Shown: positions 21,493-41,758 of the stretch, piece by piece | Layout of the letters: each line of letters starts with the position of its first letter | Numbering within the stretch: position 1 is the stretch's first letter | The notes under the pieces: model-generated | The model's database searches: none | Told to the model about the DNA's origin: nothing | The model's input: the letters and a program-made list of their open reading frames with translations, nothing else | Translations under genes and position numbers: made by a program | Assembly (NCBI GenBank): GCA_003142185.1 | Contig: PLOR01000096.1 | Coordinates: forward strand, 1 to 64,000 | Length of the DNA stretch: 64,000 nucleotides | Direction: 5' to 3' | Origin: Bryobacterales bacterium | Lineage (GTDB): Bacteria > Acidobacteriota > Terriglobia > Bryobacterales > Bryobacteraceae

Positions 21493-24400
21493 ATGGCATA
21501 CGCACACTTGTCGTACGATCCCTGGGAACTGGAGCGGGAGGAACGCGAGAAAAGGTTTGTAGGGCGGGAAGCGCTGCTGCAGCGAGTGATGGGTGCGGTC
21601 GCGGAGCAGCAAGGGCATGGGACGCTGCAACATTACCTGCTGCTGGGGCCGCGCGGAATCGGCAAGACAACCTTGTTGCTGACGCTGCGGGACCGGGTGC
21701 GGGACCGGCTCTCAGCGCAGTGGTGGTGTGTGCAGCTTCGCGAGGAAGAGTATTTCGTCCAAACGCTGCGCGACCTGCTGGAGCTGGTGTTGAGCGGACT
21801 GGCGGATGAGGAAGCACTGCCCGATGCGAAGGAACTGGCAGAGCGGGTGCGTGGAGAGGGGAATCCCGAGCGGAGCCTGGCGCTGGCAGTGGACGGGTTG
21901 CGCGCCTTGACAGCGAAGCATGGCAAGCGGGTGCTGCTACTGGTCGACAATTTCGACCGGGTGTTTCCGGCCACAGCGACCGGTCGCGATAAGAAGCGCG
22001 CGCCGGAGAGCGAATTCCGGTCGTTCCGGAAGCTGCTCAGCCGGGAGAGCTTTCTGATGGTGATCGGTGCGTCGGTGCGGCTGTTTGAGGAGATCGCGTC
22101 GTACGACCGGGCCTTCTTTAACTTTTTTGTGCCGGTCGAGGTCCCGAACCTGGACGATGATGAAATCTGCGAGCTGCTGCGGCGGTGCGCGGAGGTGGAG
22201 GGGAACACCAAGTTTCTGGATCAGCTTGCCGCGATGAGGGACAAGGTGCGGGCGATCACCTACATGACCGGAGGGAATCCGCGGCTGGTGGTTATGCTGT
22301 ACGATGTGCTGCGGCAGCACGAGATGGCCCCGGTGGTGCAAGCGCTGCGGGAGACGGTGGGCGGACTGACGCCGCTGCTGAAACACGTCCTCGACGACAT
22401 GCCGCGGCAGCAGAGCAAAACGTTGGATGCGCTGATGCGCCTGCAAGGAGTCGCATCGCCGAACGAGATCGCGAAGCTGGCGCGGCTGCCGCTGAACGTG
22501 GTTACCGCACAGCTCGGCAGATTGCGGGAGGGCCGGTTTCTCGCGAGTGAGGGAGAGGGGAAGGGCCGTCCGGCCACGTACCGGATATCGGATCCGATGT
22601 TTCGCACCTGGTACCAGATGCGTTATCTGCGCCCCGCGGGCCGGAGGGTGGAACTGTTTGTGGAGTTCATCCGCGCGTGGTTTTCGGTGGAGGAGCGGCG
22701 GAAGTTTCTGGATGACAAGTGGCGGGAGTTTGGAACCGGCCGGCGGCTGGGCATGGAGGCGGCGCTATCGATCCAGCATTATGCGGCCGCCCTCGAGGAC
22801 AAGCAGGAGCAGTGGGGGCACGTCCAGCATCTTGTCGAAGTCATGGTGAAGGAAGGCAGGGAGCACGAGGCTGCGATGCTGCTGGCGGAGTCAGAGGAGC
22901 CGGGCGCGTTAACTGAGAAAAGCTTCGACTCGGCAGGATACCGGCTGCTGGGAAACCAGAAGCTGGCGAAGGGTGATTTTGACGGAGCGACGGCGGCGTT
23001 TCGGGAGGCACTGCGGAAGGAGCCGGGGAACACGGCGGCGAGGCTGGGCCTGGGAGTTTGTCTAGGAAAGGCCGAGAAGAATGATTCAGCAGTGAAGGAG
23101 CTAGGACGAGTTGTCAGCTGCAAAGGTGCTCCAGCGGACCAAGTTGCAATGGCGCTCTTCTACCGCGGCCTGGTGAAGGAGCAACTCGGGGACGCGCCCG
23201 GGGCGATCGCCGACTACACGGCGGCCGCGGAATTGGCCGGTGCTCCGGTAGTCGTGGTTGCCCAGGCCCTCTCAAACCGCGGCGTCAAGAAGGGGGGACT
23301 CGGGGATGTGCAAGGGGAGATTGCCGACCACACGACAGCCGCGGAGTTGAAGAGTGCTCCGGTGAACGAAGTTGCTAGGGCGCTCGTCAACCGCGCCTTC
23401 GCGAAGGGGAAACTCGGAGACGTGCACGGGGAGATTGACGACTACACGGCGGTGGTGGAGTTGGCCGGCGCTCCGGTCGAAGGCATTGCGAGGGCACTTG
23501 TCAACCGGGGCCTCGTTAAAGGGCAACTTGGGGACGCACAGGGCGGGATTGCCGACTACACTGCAGTAGTGGAGTTGGACGGCGCTCCAGCGGACCAAGT
23601 TAGCGCGGCGCTTTTCAGCCGCGGCATTGCGAAGAGGCGACTCGGAGACACACAGGGCGAGATTGCCGACTACACTGCAGTGGTTGAGCTGGCCGGCGCT
23701 CCCATAGACCGAGTTGCCTGGACACTATTTAGCCGGGGTATTGCAAAAGGGAAGCTGGGAGACGCACGGGGGGAGATTGCGGACTACACTTCAGTGGTAG
23801 AGTTGGCCGGCGCTCCGGTGGAGGAGGTTGCCAGGGCTCTCTTCAACCGGGGCACTACCGAGTTAGTCCTTGGGGACGTGCAGGGGGCAGTTGCCGACTA
23901 CACGGCAGTGGTGGAGTTGGCTGGCGCTCCTATGGACCAAATTGCCTCCGCACAGGTGGGCCGGGGCTACGTGAAGCGGACACTCGGCGACCTACCGGGA
24001 GCGATTGCCGACTGCACGGCGGTTGTGGAGTTGGCCGGCGCCCCGTTCGAGCCAGTTGCCTGGGCGCGCCACATTTGCGGCGTCGCTCTAAGCGAACTCG
24101 GGAGAACGGAGGAAGCGATCTCATCTTTCCAACGATGCGTGGAAATGAAGGCCAGCGCGGAGACCGTTCACGGATCTTTCGCCAAACTAGCGAGCATCCT
24201 CCTCGCCAACAAGCGAGATGCCGAAGCTGCGGGTTGGATGGCGCGACTGCACGAGTTCGAAACACCGGACCTGTCGCTGGAGGCTCGGCTGGAAGCCCGA
24301 ATTCAGGTGATCGCGCAGGCTGGGACCGAACATGGCCCCGACGCCGCGGAAGCGCTGCTAGACGCGGCATTGCGCGGGGGACCAGAAGACGTTCGGGCGC

Positions 24401-24546
24401 GGCTGGAATTCTTGGGGCCGGCAATTCAGTACGCGAAGTCGGGAGACGACCTGGCGCTGTCCCGGTTGCCGGAGCGGGAACGCGACGCGGCAAAACAGAT
24501 CGCGGGCAGCATCACGAAGAAGGACGGAGGGGCGGCGAAGAAATGA
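21493..24546 (+). CDS. P-loop ATPase with winged helix and nine 38-residue TPR-like repeats
   Basis: A 1017-residue protein. Phe-Val-Gly-Arg-Glu (22-26), Walker A Gly-Pro-Arg-Gly-Ile-Gly-Lys-Thr-Thr (52-60) and Walker B Val-Leu-Leu-Leu-Val-Asp-Asn (147-153, with Asn replacing the usual Glu) form the ATPase. A winged helix follows at about 330-400. TPR-like helices begin near 470, and a regular array of nine 38-residue repeats covers 543-884. The plan (switch ATPase plus repeat sensor) is that of STAND proteins used in signalling and defence. No effector domain is visible, so an effector would have to be a partner. It lies 9 bases after the other ATPase gene. Confidence 0.8.
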   Translation: MAYAHLSYDPWELEREEREKRFVGREALLQRVMGAVAEQQGHGTLQHYLLLGPRGIGKTTLLLTLRDRVRDRLSAQWWCVQLREEEYFVQTLRDLLELVLSGLADEEALPDAKELAERVRGEGNPERSLALAVDGLRALTAKHGKRVLLLVDNFDRVFPATATGRDKKRAPESEFRSFRKLLSRESFLMVIGASVRLFEEIASYDRAFFNFFVPVEVPNLDDDEICELLRRCAEVEGNTKFLDQLAAMRDKVRAITYMTGGNPRLVVMLYDVLRQHEMAPVVQALRETVGGLTPLLKHVLDDMPRQQSKTLDALMRLQGVASPNEIAKLARLPLNVVTAQLGRLREGRFLASEGEGKGRPATYRISDPMFRTWYQMRYLRPAGRRVELFVEFIRAWFSVEERRKFLDDKWREFGTGRRLGMEAALSIQHYAAALEDKQEQWGHVQHLVEVMVKEGREHEAAMLLAESEEPGALTEKSFDSAGYRLLGNQKLAKGDFDGATAAFREALRKEPGNTAARLGLGVCLGKAEKNDSAVKELGRVVSCKGAPADQVAMALFYRGLVKEQLGDAPGAIADYTAAAELAGAPVVVVAQALSNRGVKKGGLGDVQGEIADHTTAAELKSAPVNEVARALVNRAFAKGKLGDVHGEIDDYTAVVELAGAPVEGIARALVNRGLVKGQLGDAQGGIADYTAVVELDGAPADQVSAALFSRGIAKRRLGDTQGEIADYTAVVELAGAPIDRVAWTLFSRGIAKGKLGDARGEIADYTSVVELAGAPVEEVARALFNRGTTELVLGDVQGAVADYTAVVELAGAPMDQIASAQVGRGYVKRTLGDLPGAIADCTAVVELAGAPFEPVAWARHICGVALSELGRTEEAISSFQRCVEMKASAETVHGSFAKLASILLANKRDAEAAGWMARLHEFETPDLSLEARLEARIQVIAQAGTEHGPDAAEALLDAALRGGPEDVRARLEFLGPAIQYAKSGDDLALSRLPERERDAAKQIAGSITKKDGGAAKK
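23119..24144 (+). repeat. In-frame array of nine 114-bp repeats
   Basis: Each unit encodes 38 residues with the consensus Glu-Leu-Ala-Gly-Ala-Pro-Val, Ala-Arg-Ala-Leu-x-Asn-Arg-Gly-x-x-Lys, Leu-Gly-Asp-x-x-Gly, Ile-Ala-Asp-Tyr-Thr-Ala-Val-Val. The middle units are the most alike and the first and last are diverged, as expected for an array growing by tandem duplication. Confidence 0.85.
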
Positions 24547-30096: not shown

Positions 30097-32241
30097 CTAT
30101 TGGGATTGAACCGGAATCATGGCGCCGGCGGGTGAACCGGCGCCGCCGTAGGTCGCGATCACCTGGTTGTCGCCGTTAGCCGCCAACGACGGCACCACCA
30201 CGTTGAGCTGATACAGGCCCGGGCTGATGAGTCCCGCGAATTGGACCGTCGCCGATATCCCGCCGATGGTGACGATGGGCCAGGGCGTGGGCAGAACGCC
30301 GGTCTGCACCGCAGAGCCAGCCGTCACGGGCGAGGTGGGAAGGCCGAGCCCGTCGCAGAACAACAGGATGGTTTCGCCGGGCGCAGCCGGAGTGAAGGTG
30401 TAACCAGGCACGGACAGGGAGGCCGGCCCCAGGTAGCTATAGTTCGCGTGCAGGGCGGCAACGTGGACGCCATCGCCGAATCGCAGAAAGCCGGGCGAGA
30501 CCGCCTGCAGGTTCGCGGTGAACGCGGCGCTGGTCGAGGTCCCGTTGTACACGGTTACCGAGACGGGTCCGGTGCTGGAATCGAGCGGCGTGAGGACATT
30601 CACCTGGGAGCCGCTTACATAGTATATGTATGCCGGCTTGCCGTTCACGGTGACGGTGACGGTGTCCAACACGGTTGGCATCTGGCCGGAGGCGAAAGAC
30701 GGCGCAGTGCTCCAGGTGAGCCCGCCCTGGCCGAGGCTGGCCGGCGCCAGATCGATGCCATAGATCGAGACCCAGGTATTCTGGGCGATACCGGATCCTC
30801 CACCGGAGACGCCGATGCCGGTGATGGTTGGGGATTCGGCGGTGAGATTGAGAAAAACATCAGCGCCGCCGCTGGGCAACTGCAACAGCACGGATTGGAG
30901 AAGCTGAGCGAAGTTGGAGCTAAGCGAGACGTTCAGGGCCAGTGGCTGAGGTGGCAACGAGGCAGTGGCTATATCGGCGCGGCCGTCGCCATTGAAATCC
31001 GCCGTGGTGATATCCGTGGGAACGACGGAGGTGGAGGCCGGCAGGACGATGGGGCTGCCGAACGTCCCGTCGCCATTGTTAGGCCGGATCTGGACGGCGC
31101 CGCTAGGGGCCGTGCCCACAGCGGAGAAGGCGATTGTGGCCTCGACCAGGTCGAGCCTGCCCGTTTCCAGAACGCCGGCCAGCGTGGCGTCGGAGACGTA
31201 GTTGGGCTCTGCCGTGTCGAAACTGATCGTGAAATTGCCTTTGCCGTCGCCAAGAAGCACCGTCACGCCGGCGTTGTCCACGCTGGCGCCGGCGCCCACC
31301 AGGTTGAGGTAGAGACAGGAGCCGGCAACTACGAGGTCGAGCTTGCCGTCGCCGTTGACATCGGCGGCCAGCAGGACAGTCCCCGAGGTCGCCGGCAACT
31401 GGGAGAACACCGGAGTCTTGAATGTTCCATCGCCGTTGCCTAGCGCGACTTCGAGCCACGGAGCGCCATTGCTGTCGTACGCGGCGGCTACCAGGTCGGC
31501 CTTGCCATCGCCGTTGAAATCGCCCGCCACGACCGATAGCGCCATGATGCCCGTGAAGGGAAGACTGGAAGGAGTCTGAAATGTGCCGTCGCCGTTGCCC
31601 AATAGGAGATACCAGGCGACCGTGAACGTGTTCCCGTCATATCCGGGGATGACGAGGTCGAGCTTGCCGTCGCCGTTGAAATCCGCGATAGCCGGGTGGA
31701 CCTGGCCAATCATCAGATTGCCGGTCCAGGCGCCGAGTGGCAATGTGGTGGAGATCGGTGTGCCGAAGGTTCCGCGTCCGGCGTTCGGCAGAACCAGCAC
31801 TTGGCCCATGGCACAGACTACCAGCAGATCGGGTTGCGCGGCGCGGGTGAATTTTGCGCTGGCGATGTACGCAGCGGAGCATCCGGTGGGTAGAGTGACA
31901 GTGGCAGCCTGTGAAAACGTGCCGCTGCCGCTACCCAGGTAGACCGAGACCGTCGCCGAAGCGGCGTTGGCGATGGCGATATCCTGGAACCCATCGCCAT
32001 TGAAGTCGGCCGCGGTAATTCCCAGCGGGGCTTGTTGCGCCGGAAGCGCCAACGGCGCCGCGAAGCTGGGAGTCGCCGCGGATGCCGCCCGGGAAAACAG
32101 CAGGCAGAGAAACAGCAGTACGGTGCATGGAGCGGCAAGAGCCCGCCAAACCATGAGGGAACCGGTCAGGGTACAACTCCGCGTAATCGCCATTATCGCC
32201 AGGGCCTTTCGGGACCACGTCAGGGGGTCCGTCAGATGCAT
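30097..32241 (-). CDS. Secreted FG-GAP/VCBS-repeat protein with TIGR03437 C-terminal domain
   Basis: A 714-residue exported protein. The hydrophobic signal core is at about 36-54 after a long basic n-region. FG-GAP/VCBS blades follow, each with Asp-Phe-Asn-Gly-Asp-Gly-x-x-Asp-Leu-Val calcium-loop wording, making a seven-bladed integrin-like propeller to about 450. The TIGR03437 domain fills the C-terminus (Val-Asn-Gly-Lys-Pro-Ala-Tyr-Ile-Tyr-Tyr-Val, Gln-Val-Asn-Val-Leu-Thr-Pro, Gly-Leu-Tyr-Gln-Leu-Asn-Val-Val-Val-Pro). ATG 32241 has GAGGG upstream; an ATG at 32154 would give a shorter, more ordinary signal peptide. It lies behind the NHL gene promoter region on the same strand, but the 438-base gap argues against an operon. 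Confidence 0.85.
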   Translation of the reverse strand: MHLTDPLTWSRKALAIMAITRSCTLTGSLMVWRALAAPCTVLLFLCLLFSRAASAATPSFAAPLALPAQQAPLGITAADFNGDGFQDIAIANAASATVSVYLGSGSGTFSQAATVTLPTGCSAAYIASAKFTRAAQPDLLVVCAMGQVLVLPNAGRGTFGTPISTTLPLGAWTGNLMIGQVHPAIADFNGDGKLDLVIPGYDGNTFTVAWYLLLGNGDGTFQTPSSLPFTGIMALSVVAGDFNGDGKADLVAAAYDSNGAPWLEVALGNGDGTFKTPVFSQLPATSGTVLLAADVNGDGKLDLVVAGSCLYLNLVGAGASVDNAGVTVLLGDGKGNFTISFDTAEPNYVSDATLAGVLETGRLDLVEATIAFSAVGTAPSGAVQIRPNNGDGTFGSPIVLPASTSVVPTDITTADFNGDGRADIATASLPPQPLALNVSLSSNFAQLLQSVLLQLPSGGADVFLNLTAESPTITGIGVSGGGSGIAQNTWVSIYGIDLAPASLGQGGLTWSTAPSFASGQMPTVLDTVTVTVNGKPAYIYYVSGSQVNVLTPLDSSTGPVSVTVYNGTSTSAAFTANLQAVSPGFLRFGDGVHVAALHANYSYLGPASLSVPGYTFTPAAPGETILLFCDGLGLPTSPVTAGSAVQTGVLPTPWPIVTIGGISATVQFAGLISPGLYQLNVVVPSLAANGDNQVIATYGGAGSPAGAMIPVQSQ

Positions 32242-38806: not shown

Positions 38807-41758
38807 ATGGCTGCACGTTACAGCCCATGCGCCCGTCATTTTGATGTGCGGTGGAGTGTGCCCATACTGGCGTTGCTGCTGGCCGGTTGCCTGGCGGCGG
38901 AAGAACTGAGCGCGTGGGAGCTGTACGAGTTCGGGCGGGACGCGGAAAAGAAGGGCCAGATGGCGCAAGCTTACCTGCTGTATTCGGAAGCCGCCGCGCT
39001 GGAGCCGCGCAACCAGACGTACTGGCTGCGCAGCCAGGCCGTTCGTTCGCGCGCAGCCCTGGAAGCAAAGCCGGTTCCTCCAGTAACCTCGGCGACCGGC
39101 AATGGCAGCCTGGAGGAAGCCGGCCCGCCGCTGGAGGCTGCCACCACGGTCGACCTGGCGGATGCGAGGAAGGCACTGCCGACGTCGGAGATGGCGGGCG
39201 GGGATCTGATCCGGGATTTCGATCTGAGTGGAGACTCGAAGCAGGTGTATACGGACGTGGCCAAGGCTTTCGGCCTGGACTGCGTCTTCGATGGCGACTA
39301 CCAGCCGCTGCCTGCGCTCCATTACCGCCTGGACGGCGTGGGGTACCGGGAGGCGCTGCACGGCCTCGAATTCGCCACGGGAACGTTCATAGCGCCGCTC
39401 TCCCCCAAGCTGTTTCTGGTGTCGAAAGACACGCCGGAAAAACGAAGGCAAAACGAGCCGGTGGTGGCGGTGACCATTCCGCTGCCGGACGCCGGCGTGC
39501 AGCAGGACTTCACCGGCCTGGTGGACGCCGTGAAGCAGGCGACCGGGGTTGAGAAAACCAGCGTCGATTCGCAGACGCGAATGCTGGTGCTTCGCGGCAG
39601 CCTGTCGCGCGTGCTGCCAGCCCAAGCAATGCTGGAGCAACTTCTTTATCCACGGACTCAGGTGATGATGGAGCTGGAGCTGGTGGAAGTCAGCCGCAGC
39701 AAGACGAACACGTATGGCGTGGATTTTCCGACCATGTTCTCGCTGACCGCACTGACTAACTGGCTGGGTAATCAGGTAACACTTCCCACGAACATCAGCG
39801 GGTTGCTCTCATTCGGCGGTGGTAAGACATTGCTGGGAATGGGAATCATGGACGCCGCCGCGGTGGCGCAAATGAGCGAAAGCACCGGCAAGGTGCTGTG
39901 GGCCACCGAATTGCGCGGCGAAGAGCGCCAGCCTACCACGCTGCACGTGGGCAACCGTTACCCTGTGCTCACATCCGGCTATTTCGGAGAGTCGGGCTCT
40001 TCGGCAACATCGGGCACCACGGGCACGGGGACTAGCATTGGCTCCGGGACTGGCACCGCTACGGGCGTCGGCACTTTGACCCTGAGCCAGAACACGGTAG
40101 CGTGGACCTACAATTCGGCGGGTGTATCCCCGCAGGACGCCAGTGTCAAGGTCACCAGCAGCAATGGAGCCATCGGCTACACGGCCACGGTGGCCAGCTC
40201 CAGCCGGTGGCTGGTTGTGAACTCCGCGACAACCGTTTCGGGTACCCTGCCAGCCACACTGACCGTTTCGCCCGGCGGCGCGCTCGCGGCGCTTGACACT
40301 GGTTCTTACGTTGGCACGGTGCAGGTGAGCGGGTCGGACGGCTCCGTCACATACTTCACCGTAACCCTGACGGTCAATGGCGGTGCGCCGAATCTCACCG
40401 TCACTCCCAGCACCATCCCGCTGGCCGCCGTGGCTGGCGGCTTGACGGCGCAACAAACGGAGACGGTGACCAGCACCATCGGCGGGACTCTTTCGGCCAG
40501 CGTGATCGGACCCGGCCTTTCGCTATCGGTTTCCGCGAGCACGGTGACCGCCAACACACCGGCCTACGTTACGGTTCAGGGGAATCCCGCGGGACTGTCA
40601 GCGCTGACCTATCTCGGCATTCTTAGCGTGACCGTGGGCGCCGTTACCGAGGAGACGCTGGTGACCTTCAACGTGACTTCGAGCGGGAGCTTGGTGCTGA
40701 GCCCTTCTTCGATTCCCTGGACTTATACCTCCGGCGGAAGCCTGCCGGCGGCCACCAGCGTGACAGTATCGAGCAGCGGTACCGGCATCACGTTTACCGC
40801 GACCGCATCGAGCGCGAGCTCATGGCTGTTGGTGGACGGCGTATCGACTCTCTCGGGGACTCTGCCTGCTGTTCTTGTCCTCAGCCCCGCCTCCAGCCTC
40901 GCGGATCTCGGCACGGGCACTTATCAGGGCACGGTCGCATTGAGTGGATCGGATGGCTCCCTCGCTTACATTAATGTGACTTTGACCGTCAACGGGGGAA
41001 CCGCCAGCGGTCTCACGGTTACGCCGAACCCGGTCTCGCTGAGCGCGTCTCTCGATGGTTCCACTGTGTCGGCAACCGTTACGGTGACCAGCGGGACCAG
41101 CGGAGCCTTCTCGGCGACCGTAACCGGATCCGGTCTGTCGCTTTCGGATGTCGGCTCGACGGTGGCGGCAAATACGGCGACCGCCTTCACTGTGTATGCA
41201 AATCCTTCGGGCCTTACGGCGAGTACTTACGTCGGCGCCATTACCGTCACCGCGGCGGGTGTCACACAGACTGTTCAGGTGAGCTTCAGCGTGGGTGCGA
41301 TCAGCAGCGGAAGCAATGGGACCTCCGTCTATACACCGGCTCCCTCGTTCACATTCGAGGACTTAGGGCTGAGTTTGAAATTGACGCCGATGGTGCACGA
41401 CCTGAACGAGGTGTCGCTCGATATCGAAGCCGAGGTCAAGCTGCTCACGGGCCAATCGGTCAACGGCGTTCCGGTGGTCTCCAACCGTAGCGTGAAGTCA
41501 GTGGTACGGCTGAAAACGGGCGAGTGGGCGGCAGTGGCCGGATTGTTGGATACGAATGAAGGACGCAACATCTCGGGGTTGGCCGGCCTTTCCGAGATCC
41601 GCTTCCTGGGCCCGCTGCTGAGCACGCACGAACACGACACGTCGCGTGACGAGGTCATCCTGCTGGTGCGGCCCCGCCTGTTGAGCGAGCCGCCCAGCGA
41701 GCATGTGTCGCGCGCGATCGCGGTGGGCACGGACACCAGACCGGCCACCATCTTCTAG
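38807..41758 (+). CDS. Secretin-domain protein with a large Ig/BACON-like insertion
   Basis: A 983-residue outer-membrane protein related to GspD/PilQ secretins. After a signal peptide there is a TPR-like stretch (Gly-Gln-Met-Ala-Gln-Ala-Tyr-Leu-Leu-Tyr-Ser-Glu-Ala) and N-domains (about 140-280). The secretin domain starts with Met-Met-Glu-Leu-Glu-Leu-Val-Glu-Val-Ser and Thr-Leu-His-Val-Gly-Asn-Arg-Tyr-Pro-Val-Leu-Thr. It is then split by a Ser/Thr/Gly linker and four beta-sandwich modules (about 423-832). It resumes with Phe-Glu-Asp-Leu-Gly-Leu-Ser-Leu-Lys-Leu-Thr-Pro and ends with Leu-Ser-Glu-Ile-Arg-Phe-Leu-Gly-Pro-Leu-Leu and Leu-Val-Arg-Pro-Arg-Leu. No other secretion genes are near. The frame is open upstream to 37691, but that part overlaps mscS. 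Confidence 0.85.
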   Translation: MAARYSPCARHFDVRWSVPILALLLAGCLAAEELSAWELYEFGRDAEKKGQMAQAYLLYSEAAALEPRNQTYWLRSQAVRSRAALEAKPVPPVTSATGNGSLEEAGPPLEAATTVDLADARKALPTSEMAGGDLIRDFDLSGDSKQVYTDVAKAFGLDCVFDGDYQPLPALHYRLDGVGYREALHGLEFATGTFIAPLSPKLFLVSKDTPEKRRQNEPVVAVTIPLPDAGVQQDFTGLVDAVKQATGVEKTSVDSQTRMLVLRGSLSRVLPAQAMLEQLLYPRTQVMMELELVEVSRSKTNTYGVDFPTMFSLTALTNWLGNQVTLPTNISGLLSFGGGKTLLGMGIMDAAAVAQMSESTGKVLWATELRGEERQPTTLHVGNRYPVLTSGYFGESGSSATSGTTGTGTSIGSGTGTATGVGTLTLSQNTVAWTYNSAGVSPQDASVKVTSSNGAIGYTATVASSSRWLVVNSATTVSGTLPATLTVSPGGALAALDTGSYVGTVQVSGSDGSVTYFTVTLTVNGGAPNLTVTPSTIPLAAVAGGLTAQQTETVTSTIGGTLSASVIGPGLSLSVSASTVTANTPAYVTVQGNPAGLSALTYLGILSVTVGAVTEETLVTFNVTSSGSLVLSPSSIPWTYTSGGSLPAATSVTVSSSGTGITFTATASSASSWLLVDGVSTLSGTLPAVLVLSPASSLADLGTGTYQGTVALSGSDGSLAYINVTLTVNGGTASGLTVTPNPVSLSASLDGSTVSATVTVTSGTSGAFSATVTGSGLSLSDVGSTVAANTATAFTVYANPSGLTASTYVGAITVTAAGVTQTVQVSFSVGAISSGSNGTSVYTPAPSFTFEDLGLSLKLTPMVHDLNEVSLDIEAEVKLLTGQSVNGVPVVSNRSVKSVVRLKTGEWAAVAGLLDTNEGRNISGLAGLSEIRFLGPLLSTHEHDTSRDEVILLVRPRLLSEPPSEHVSRAIAVGTDTRPATIF

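Follow-up and report, generated by a model that had tools for sequence, protein, structure and literature searches.

Ig-like modules at the predicted tip of the central gate of an acidobacterial secretin, and unlike folds there in its relatives

Introduction

An orphan secretin gene of a Bryobacterales bacterium (contig PLOR01000096.1, of which the first 64,000 nucleotides were analysed as one stretch and are here called the window) encodes a protein whose secretin domain is interrupted by four Ig-like modules, which alignment with XcpD puts on the tip of Gate 1, the hairpin that forms the central gate. Related secretins carry unlike folds, or none, at this same gate site, which is new here, and it looks as if exchangeable parts can naturally dock on the gate of such pores. 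Across the secretins with cargo the tip bears 240-540 residues of folded protein, and since the folds also differ between relatives, the gate would tolerate far more than has been thought. Like GspD/PulD/XcpD, PilQ, pIV and InvG (PF00263), the window protein has the barrel strands, the double pivot glycines and the Gate 1 position of the secretins. The literature listings and abstracts searched, which cover few of the subscription journals, contain no account of a secretin gate with inserted domains.

Architecture of the secretin gene

The protein combines an N-terminal helical region, pre-barrel domains (aa ~136-279) which we take to be N0/STN-like and then N1-like, and a secretin domain in two parts (Table 1; residues of the structural model are converted to protein numbering by adding 27). 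Some orthologs give weak TPR matches in the N-terminal region, mostly below the Pfam cut-off. The C half scores 82.4 bits with PF00263, whose gathering cut-off is 27.5, and the window secretin scores 83.9 bits in the whole-genome profile search; the N half alone gives 5.9 bits against solved secretins, a non-significant sequence match. None of the NCBIfam cut-offs is reached (GspD 83.7 of 351.35 bits, PilQ 54.3 of 284.35, MshL 59.2 of 250.2 and SctC 38 of 238.45), and the insert itself may depress these whole-protein scores. Fold comparison with VIA-align, which skips the insert, matches PilQ, pIV and GspD over model residues ~190-938 (aa ~217-965), the best three at Z 13.8-14.2: PilQ 6ve2 (Z 14.2, rmsd 7.0, 265 residues), pIV 7ofh (Z 13.8, rmsd 6.3, 226 residues) and GspD 5zdh (Z 13.8, rmsd 10.6, 270 residues). 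Both flanks are secretin, the C half by HMM and both by predicted fold. The preliminary description of this DNA had proposed a secretin domain split by an insert at 40075-41300, and this is borne out: the interval corresponds closely to the module block, the flanking strands are secretin by PF00263, VIA-align and the XcpD alignment, and in the full-chain structure prediction the modules lie in sequence inside a secretin domain whose two parts, before and after them, both align to solved secretins.

Translation from the alternative start GTG 38846 would give LAGC, a lipobox by the usual rule. A crude lipobox pattern occurs in 12 of 55 rows of the window's family and in 0 of 11 rows from Acidiferrales, and a lipoprotein nature was therefore rejected as a trait of the family.

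Table 1. Features of the secretin gene, in positions of the window
Feature	Position	Strand	Remarks
Orphan secretin gene, 983 aa	38807-41758	+	ATG 38807; alternative start GTG 38846
N-terminal helical (TPR-like) region, ~aa 36-86	38912-39064	+	From the model
Pre-barrel domains, ~aa 136-279	39212-39643	+	Helices and strands seen in the model
Secretin domain, first part, ~aa 285-396, ending with first gate strand VGNRYPVLTSGYFG	39659-39994	+	
First pivot Gly, aa 382	39950	+	Alignment to XcpD through ortholog L043
N-side Gly/Ser/Thr linker	39995-40066	+	pLDDT < 50
Module A	40067-40384	+	Beta module resembling A' in sequence
Module B	40385-40687	+	Top single-domain match sialidase domain 2ber, Z 10.6, rmsd 2.1
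Module A'	40688-41002	+	Matches GH115 domain 4zmh, Z 9.3; 54.8% identity to A
Module B'	41003-41305	+	47.5% identity to B
C-side short Ser/Gly/Asn linker	41306-41329	+	
Second gate strand and remaining secretin domain	41330-41683	+	
Second pivot Gly, aa 854	41366	+	Alignment to XcpD through ortholog L043

Position of the insert

In a phmmer search of the PDB with the insertless ortholog L043, VGDRFPILTSGYFG...FEDLGFSLKMTP pairs with VGQNVPFQTGSYTTNSE...VERKDIGVSLKVTP of XcpD (5wln). Numbered along the 5wln chain with an offset of 34, the two glycines are residues 466 and 496, and the insert would enter at ~477-480; according to Barbat et al., the XcpD central gate comprises residues 466-496 (31 residues), and residues 477 and 480 are at the gate tip. 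The two pivot glycines of the window protein correspond, via L043, to G466 and the Gly at position 496 of XcpD, which gives a central gate of 473 residues against 31 in XcpD. By this alignment the pivot glycines enclose the insert, which sits on the hairpin tip of Gate 1; this refines the earlier assignment to the gate or loop part of the barrel.

In T2SS secretins, the Vibrio-type top gate or cap gate is likewise an optional, lineage-specific extra in a secretin loop, but it is apical, lies between alpha10 and alpha11 and measures 34-101 residues in all. Because the pivots at aa 382 and 854 align to those of XcpD, the insert belongs to the central gate and not to this apical region. Barbat et al. 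and the pIV paper PMC8563730 describe the central gate as the conserved seal of the studied secretins, in which point changes make the membrane leaky, and place the gate tip in the lumen.

The inserted modules

The insert (aa 397-841, 39995-41329) consists of a linker, the modules A, B, A' and B', and a second, short linker. Modules A and A' are 54.8% identical (z 21.7 over shuffled partners) and B and B' 47.5% (z 16.9), against 28-33% for pairs of an A-type with a B-type module, two of which were tested and gave z 4.0 and 3.2. These values identify A-B-A'-B' as a duplicated pair, far beyond chance, as had been recognised in the preliminary description together with the flanking Gly/Ser/Thr linker (Table 1).

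The AlphaFold2 model of the window protein, built with 42 aligned orthologs, has a mean pLDDT of 78.3 and a pTM of 0.38; the module blocks mostly reach a pLDDT of 80-92 (lowest 61) and the linkers stay below 50. Owing to the low pTM the domain folds are usable and the relative placement of the parts is not. VIA-align pairs the insert region with single domains of sialidase, GH115 and SraP at Z 8.7-10.6, all of which we take to be Ig-like; the sialidase domain 2ber aligns at Z 10.6 with an rmsd of 2.1 over 94 residues. The predicted fold of the cargo modules is accordingly Ig-like. Of the original label, Ig/BACON-like, the first half thus stands on predicted fold and the second is not supported by Pfam, where modules A and B match no family and give no BACON match even at E 10. 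At the head of the Foldseek list stand ciliary central-apparatus proteins, a tandem-repeat RTX adhesin and cadherins; the first secretin, PilQ 6w6m, comes at rank 30.

Modules of the A/B type are also present in long multi-module proteins outside this secretin, and several of these frames start with segments that look by eye like signal peptides. The A/B gate cargo contains 0-0.5% Lys plus Arg. In the A/B modules of 26 other loci (L059-L084) the mean is 0.9% (0-3.4%); charge depletion was therefore discarded as a sign of residence in the pore, the K/R-poor composition being a property of the modules and not of the gate.

Between the window and its nearest relative with the same layout (G329, of the same genus) the modules have a dN/dS of 0.229, compared with 0.137 for the N part and 0.091 for the C part of the flanks; dS is similar across the parts (0.88-1.01), and the 28 linker codons have a dN/dS of 0.261. 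The modules are thus constrained in this species pair, although less than the barrel, and they diverge faster than the flanks in both sister pairs. An assembly chimera was rejected, since three other genomes have the A-B-A'-B' layout and the modules' dN/dS against the nearest one is 0.23.

Cargo in the family of the window

Secretins with modules at the gate were found both in the family of the window and in a second family of its class. In the former, 237 genomes were searched and the N part was matched in 236; weak matches (E ~1e-12 to 1e-17), among them those in G305, G320, G323, G333, G337, G347, G455, G459 and G460, may represent a paralogous secretin. Pairing of the N and C pieces was attempted in 187 of the 237 genomes, 50 not being entered, and gave 9 gaps of more than 60 residues, 8 of them real inserts, with 155 genomes without such a gap and 23 unpaired; six of the latter (G080, G113, G089, G153, G029 and G346) have no insert at the locus. 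A gap of 103 residues in G403 was rejected as cargo because the match had ended early, and its locus (L042) is without an insert.

The 8 genomes carry four unlike kinds of cargo at the gate. The A-B-A'-B' cargo is shared by the genomes of the window and G329, which belong to one genus, and by G462 and G463; G411 has four Ig_3/I-set stretches (I-set Ig repeats), G419 and G421 have 8 and 7 FG-GAP_3 stretches, respectively, and G105 (L041/L024) has a pair of repeats of ~100 residues each, without a convincing Pfam match. A reading of the G105 cargo as Flagellin-IN was dropped, as the likeness was by eye alone and found no support in Pfam. Between the pivots the gate measures 28-42 residues in the 44 cargo-free rows and 272-567 in the 19 rows that carry cargo, as determined with a pattern that worked in 63 of 67 rows and failed in L032, L042, L048 and L092. 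Since most of the family is without cargo, the cargo is dispensable for the basic function, and the ordinary gate of most orthologs implies that this type of pore is useful without it.

An FG-GAP propeller in Candidatus Acidiferrales

The second family, Candidatus Acidiferrales ('gp2' Acidobacteria), belongs to the same class as the window. All 11 loci fetched have a long insert at the gate site with FG-GAP-like repeats in the alignment, and Pfam finds 7 FG-GAP_3 stretches each in L093 and L091. In at least 71 of the 89 genomes, as counted by eye, a single match begins in the secretin part and continues into the propeller (start at or before query residue 153, end at or after 479, with the first pivot Gly at query 403). 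The frames of G268 and G130, at 618-620 residues, are too short for a propeller, and in the genomes beyond these the matches are cut, split or ambiguous. A scan of named records gave 66 loci, 63 of them acidobacterial and 3 weak ones from other records. Among 297 genomes of other families of the phylum (E <= 1e-25), rows on G060:C1 and G099:C4 start at query 343-347, within the secretin part, and continue into the propeller, in frames of 7410 and 2308 residues. No further row covering both parts was found among the matches listed for these genomes, to whose secretins the query is distant.

The AlphaFold2 model of the propeller form (39 sequences, L093 first) has a mean pLDDT of 73.4. Blocks of the propeller reach 89-97 between residues 431 and 640 and 62-95 between 641 and 780, and the secretin sequence that precedes the gate is partly below 50; as the pTM is 0.45, the relative placement of the parts cannot be read from it. 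The modelled propeller aligns to integrin alpha propellers with Z 35.7 and an rmsd of 2.5 over 326 residues, and the best 50 matches listed in the fold search are all integrins; Foldseek puts other propellers first, including those of fungal lectins, and integrins lower. FG-GAP repeats and fold are what this form has in common with the propeller of the integrin alpha subunit and, unlike the latter, it is bacterial and lies within the gate of a pore. The alpha-I domain of integrin is also a domain within a loop of a receptor, and as protein and fold are other ones the likeness is an analogy only. In L091 (G259) a He_PIG putative Ig domain is itself nested in the gate-borne propeller, an insert within an insert.

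Evolution of the cargo

In a tree of 67 rows (LG+C20, duplicates L041 and L047 omitted) the 11 propeller secretins of Acidiferrales form one clade (100/100), and the pair comprising the window secretin is sister to the I-set form (100/95). The state without cargo involves 6 changes, 5 of which are forced by well-supported branches; the A-B-A'-B' state involves 2 changes, both forced, and so does the pair of FG-GAP forms within the family of the window. Because the tree forces at least 5 gains or losses, the cargo has been repeatedly gained, lost or replaced, and a single origin with many losses and several separate gains are both allowed.

The A-B-A'-B' layout is spread over four genomes in two clades, and the identity of the insert between the clades (53-57%) is equal to or above that within the pair L036-L037 (50.4%). 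Horizontal exchange of the cassette may explain this; the four distances still favour the order of the flanks, and saturation would give the same pattern. In the sister species L036 and L037 the flanks are 71.5 and 77.3% identical, and their cargos resemble each other less than the 57% that they share with the more distant cargo of the window, which may reflect saturation or exchange.

The gate tip could be a permissive loop which takes up mobile modules without much function. Cargo in few genomes of the window's family, the several gains or losses required by the tree and the faster evolution of the modules than of the flanks in both sister pairs would fit such a tolerated passenger, yet it is rendered improbable by the module dN/dS of 0.23, by a four-module layout that recurs in two clades (four genomes) and by the presence of propeller sequence in at least 71 of the 89 genomes from Acidiferrales.

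Proposed mechanism

It is proposed, at what we regard as about even chances, that the protein is an outer-membrane secretin whose folded gate-tip cargo would be held as a crown at the cell surface. According to PMC6155069, the Gate 1 tip of InvG shifts by ~40 Å on opening and is extended towards the lip, and the pore widens from ~15 Å to ~75 Å. Assuming 1.21 cubic Å per Da and a cylinder height of 80 Å, 15 cargos of 42 kDa would fill ~7.6e5 cubic Å, compared with ~3.5e5 for a cylinder of 75 x 80 Å, and as this is about twice the volume, the cargo would have to protrude from the lumen. In a ring of 14-15 subunits the cargo would thus be too bulky to sit wholly in the lumen. The Gate 1 hairpins would keep the raised, lip-directed position seen in open InvG, and the modules that they hold would crown the pore mouth at the cell surface. 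The crown modules may bind ligands or surfaces such as a glycan, the matrix or other cells, and their binding or crowding could set the degree of pore opening. The gate-tip position with the secretin fold on both sides, the unlike folds in orthologs, the repeated gain, loss or replacement of cargo, the module dN/dS of 0.23 and the A/B modules in long multi-module proteins, several with signal-peptide-like starts, speak for the crown. Against it, the folded modules must get to the outer side during assembly, and the cargo is absent in most of the window's family. Cargo that is swapped or dropped among related species is what would be expected of a surface-exposed recognition part.

The modules could instead hang below the gate into the periplasmic chamber, where they would bind the secreted substrate, peptidoglycan or a partner, or plug the pore; the preliminary description had allowed for either side of the membrane. 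Folded domains would then not need to pass the gate, the N-side linker is flexible, and a gate tip within the lumen would let the modules exit either way. However, the open Gate 1 swings towards the lip and not inward (PMC6155069), the closed N-module of XcpD, at ~45 Å according to Barbat et al., is tight for 14-15 folded cargos, and unlike folds at one site are explained more easily by an outward recognition surface, so that a periplasmic position is possible but rather doubtful.

An extension of the surface crown, which we consider unlikely, is a ligand-sensing secretin in which the gate cargo is the receptor, and binding of a glycan, a surface or a partner cell moves Gate 1 and opens or locks the channel. 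If true, it would be the first natural secretin family with swappable gate-borne receptors, as far as the literature was searched, exchange of the cargo would alter what the pore responds to, and most Acidiferrales genomes would encode FG-GAP propeller receptors. The family offers a natural experiment on the movement of the secretin gate and a gate tip that could serve as a ready insertion site for reporters or binders. It is also a candidate system by which soil Acidobacteria could recognise surfaces.

Genomic surroundings and other secretins

The near neighbours of the secretin gene encode MurJ, isopropylmalate dehydrogenase, MscS, GH39 and an M1 peptidase, with MscS divergent from it and 24 bases between the two starts. 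No secretion genes are among the near neighbours tested, in agreement with the first account of the locus, and none are among the genes listed, and named by eye, at the loci of relatives, where the neighbours are different. Three more secretins are present in the genome, all with ordinary gates (the third judged by eye); their settings, again by eye, are a T2SS-like cluster (C10) and a Tad-like cluster (C54), both on contigs other than that of the window, and a second orphan TPR-secretin (C84). PF00437 ATPases score above the cut-off on C10, C92, C54 and C13, and a PilM-like match in the genome stays below its own.

An orphan gene of this kind could encode a ring that has lost its conduit and is a mere anchor for the display of adhesive modules, without gating or secretion, and the three other secretins with ordinary gates could do the transport. 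The gate strands and pivot glycines are nevertheless kept, purifying selection acts on the flanks (dN/dS 0.09-0.14) and most orthologs have an ordinary gate, all of which makes the loss of the conduit very improbable.

The second TPR-secretin-like frame of the genome, on C84 (G000:C84, L113:3703-6285, + strand), has 861 residues and an ordinary gate. Within the window, a protein of 1017 residues with an AAA_16/nSTAND1-type ATPase and TPR repeats is encoded at 21493-24543 on the + strand. At 30100-32241 on the - strand, ~6.6 kb upstream of the secretin, lies a gene for a 714-residue FG-GAP repeat protein, whose repeats are of the type found on the gates of relatives.
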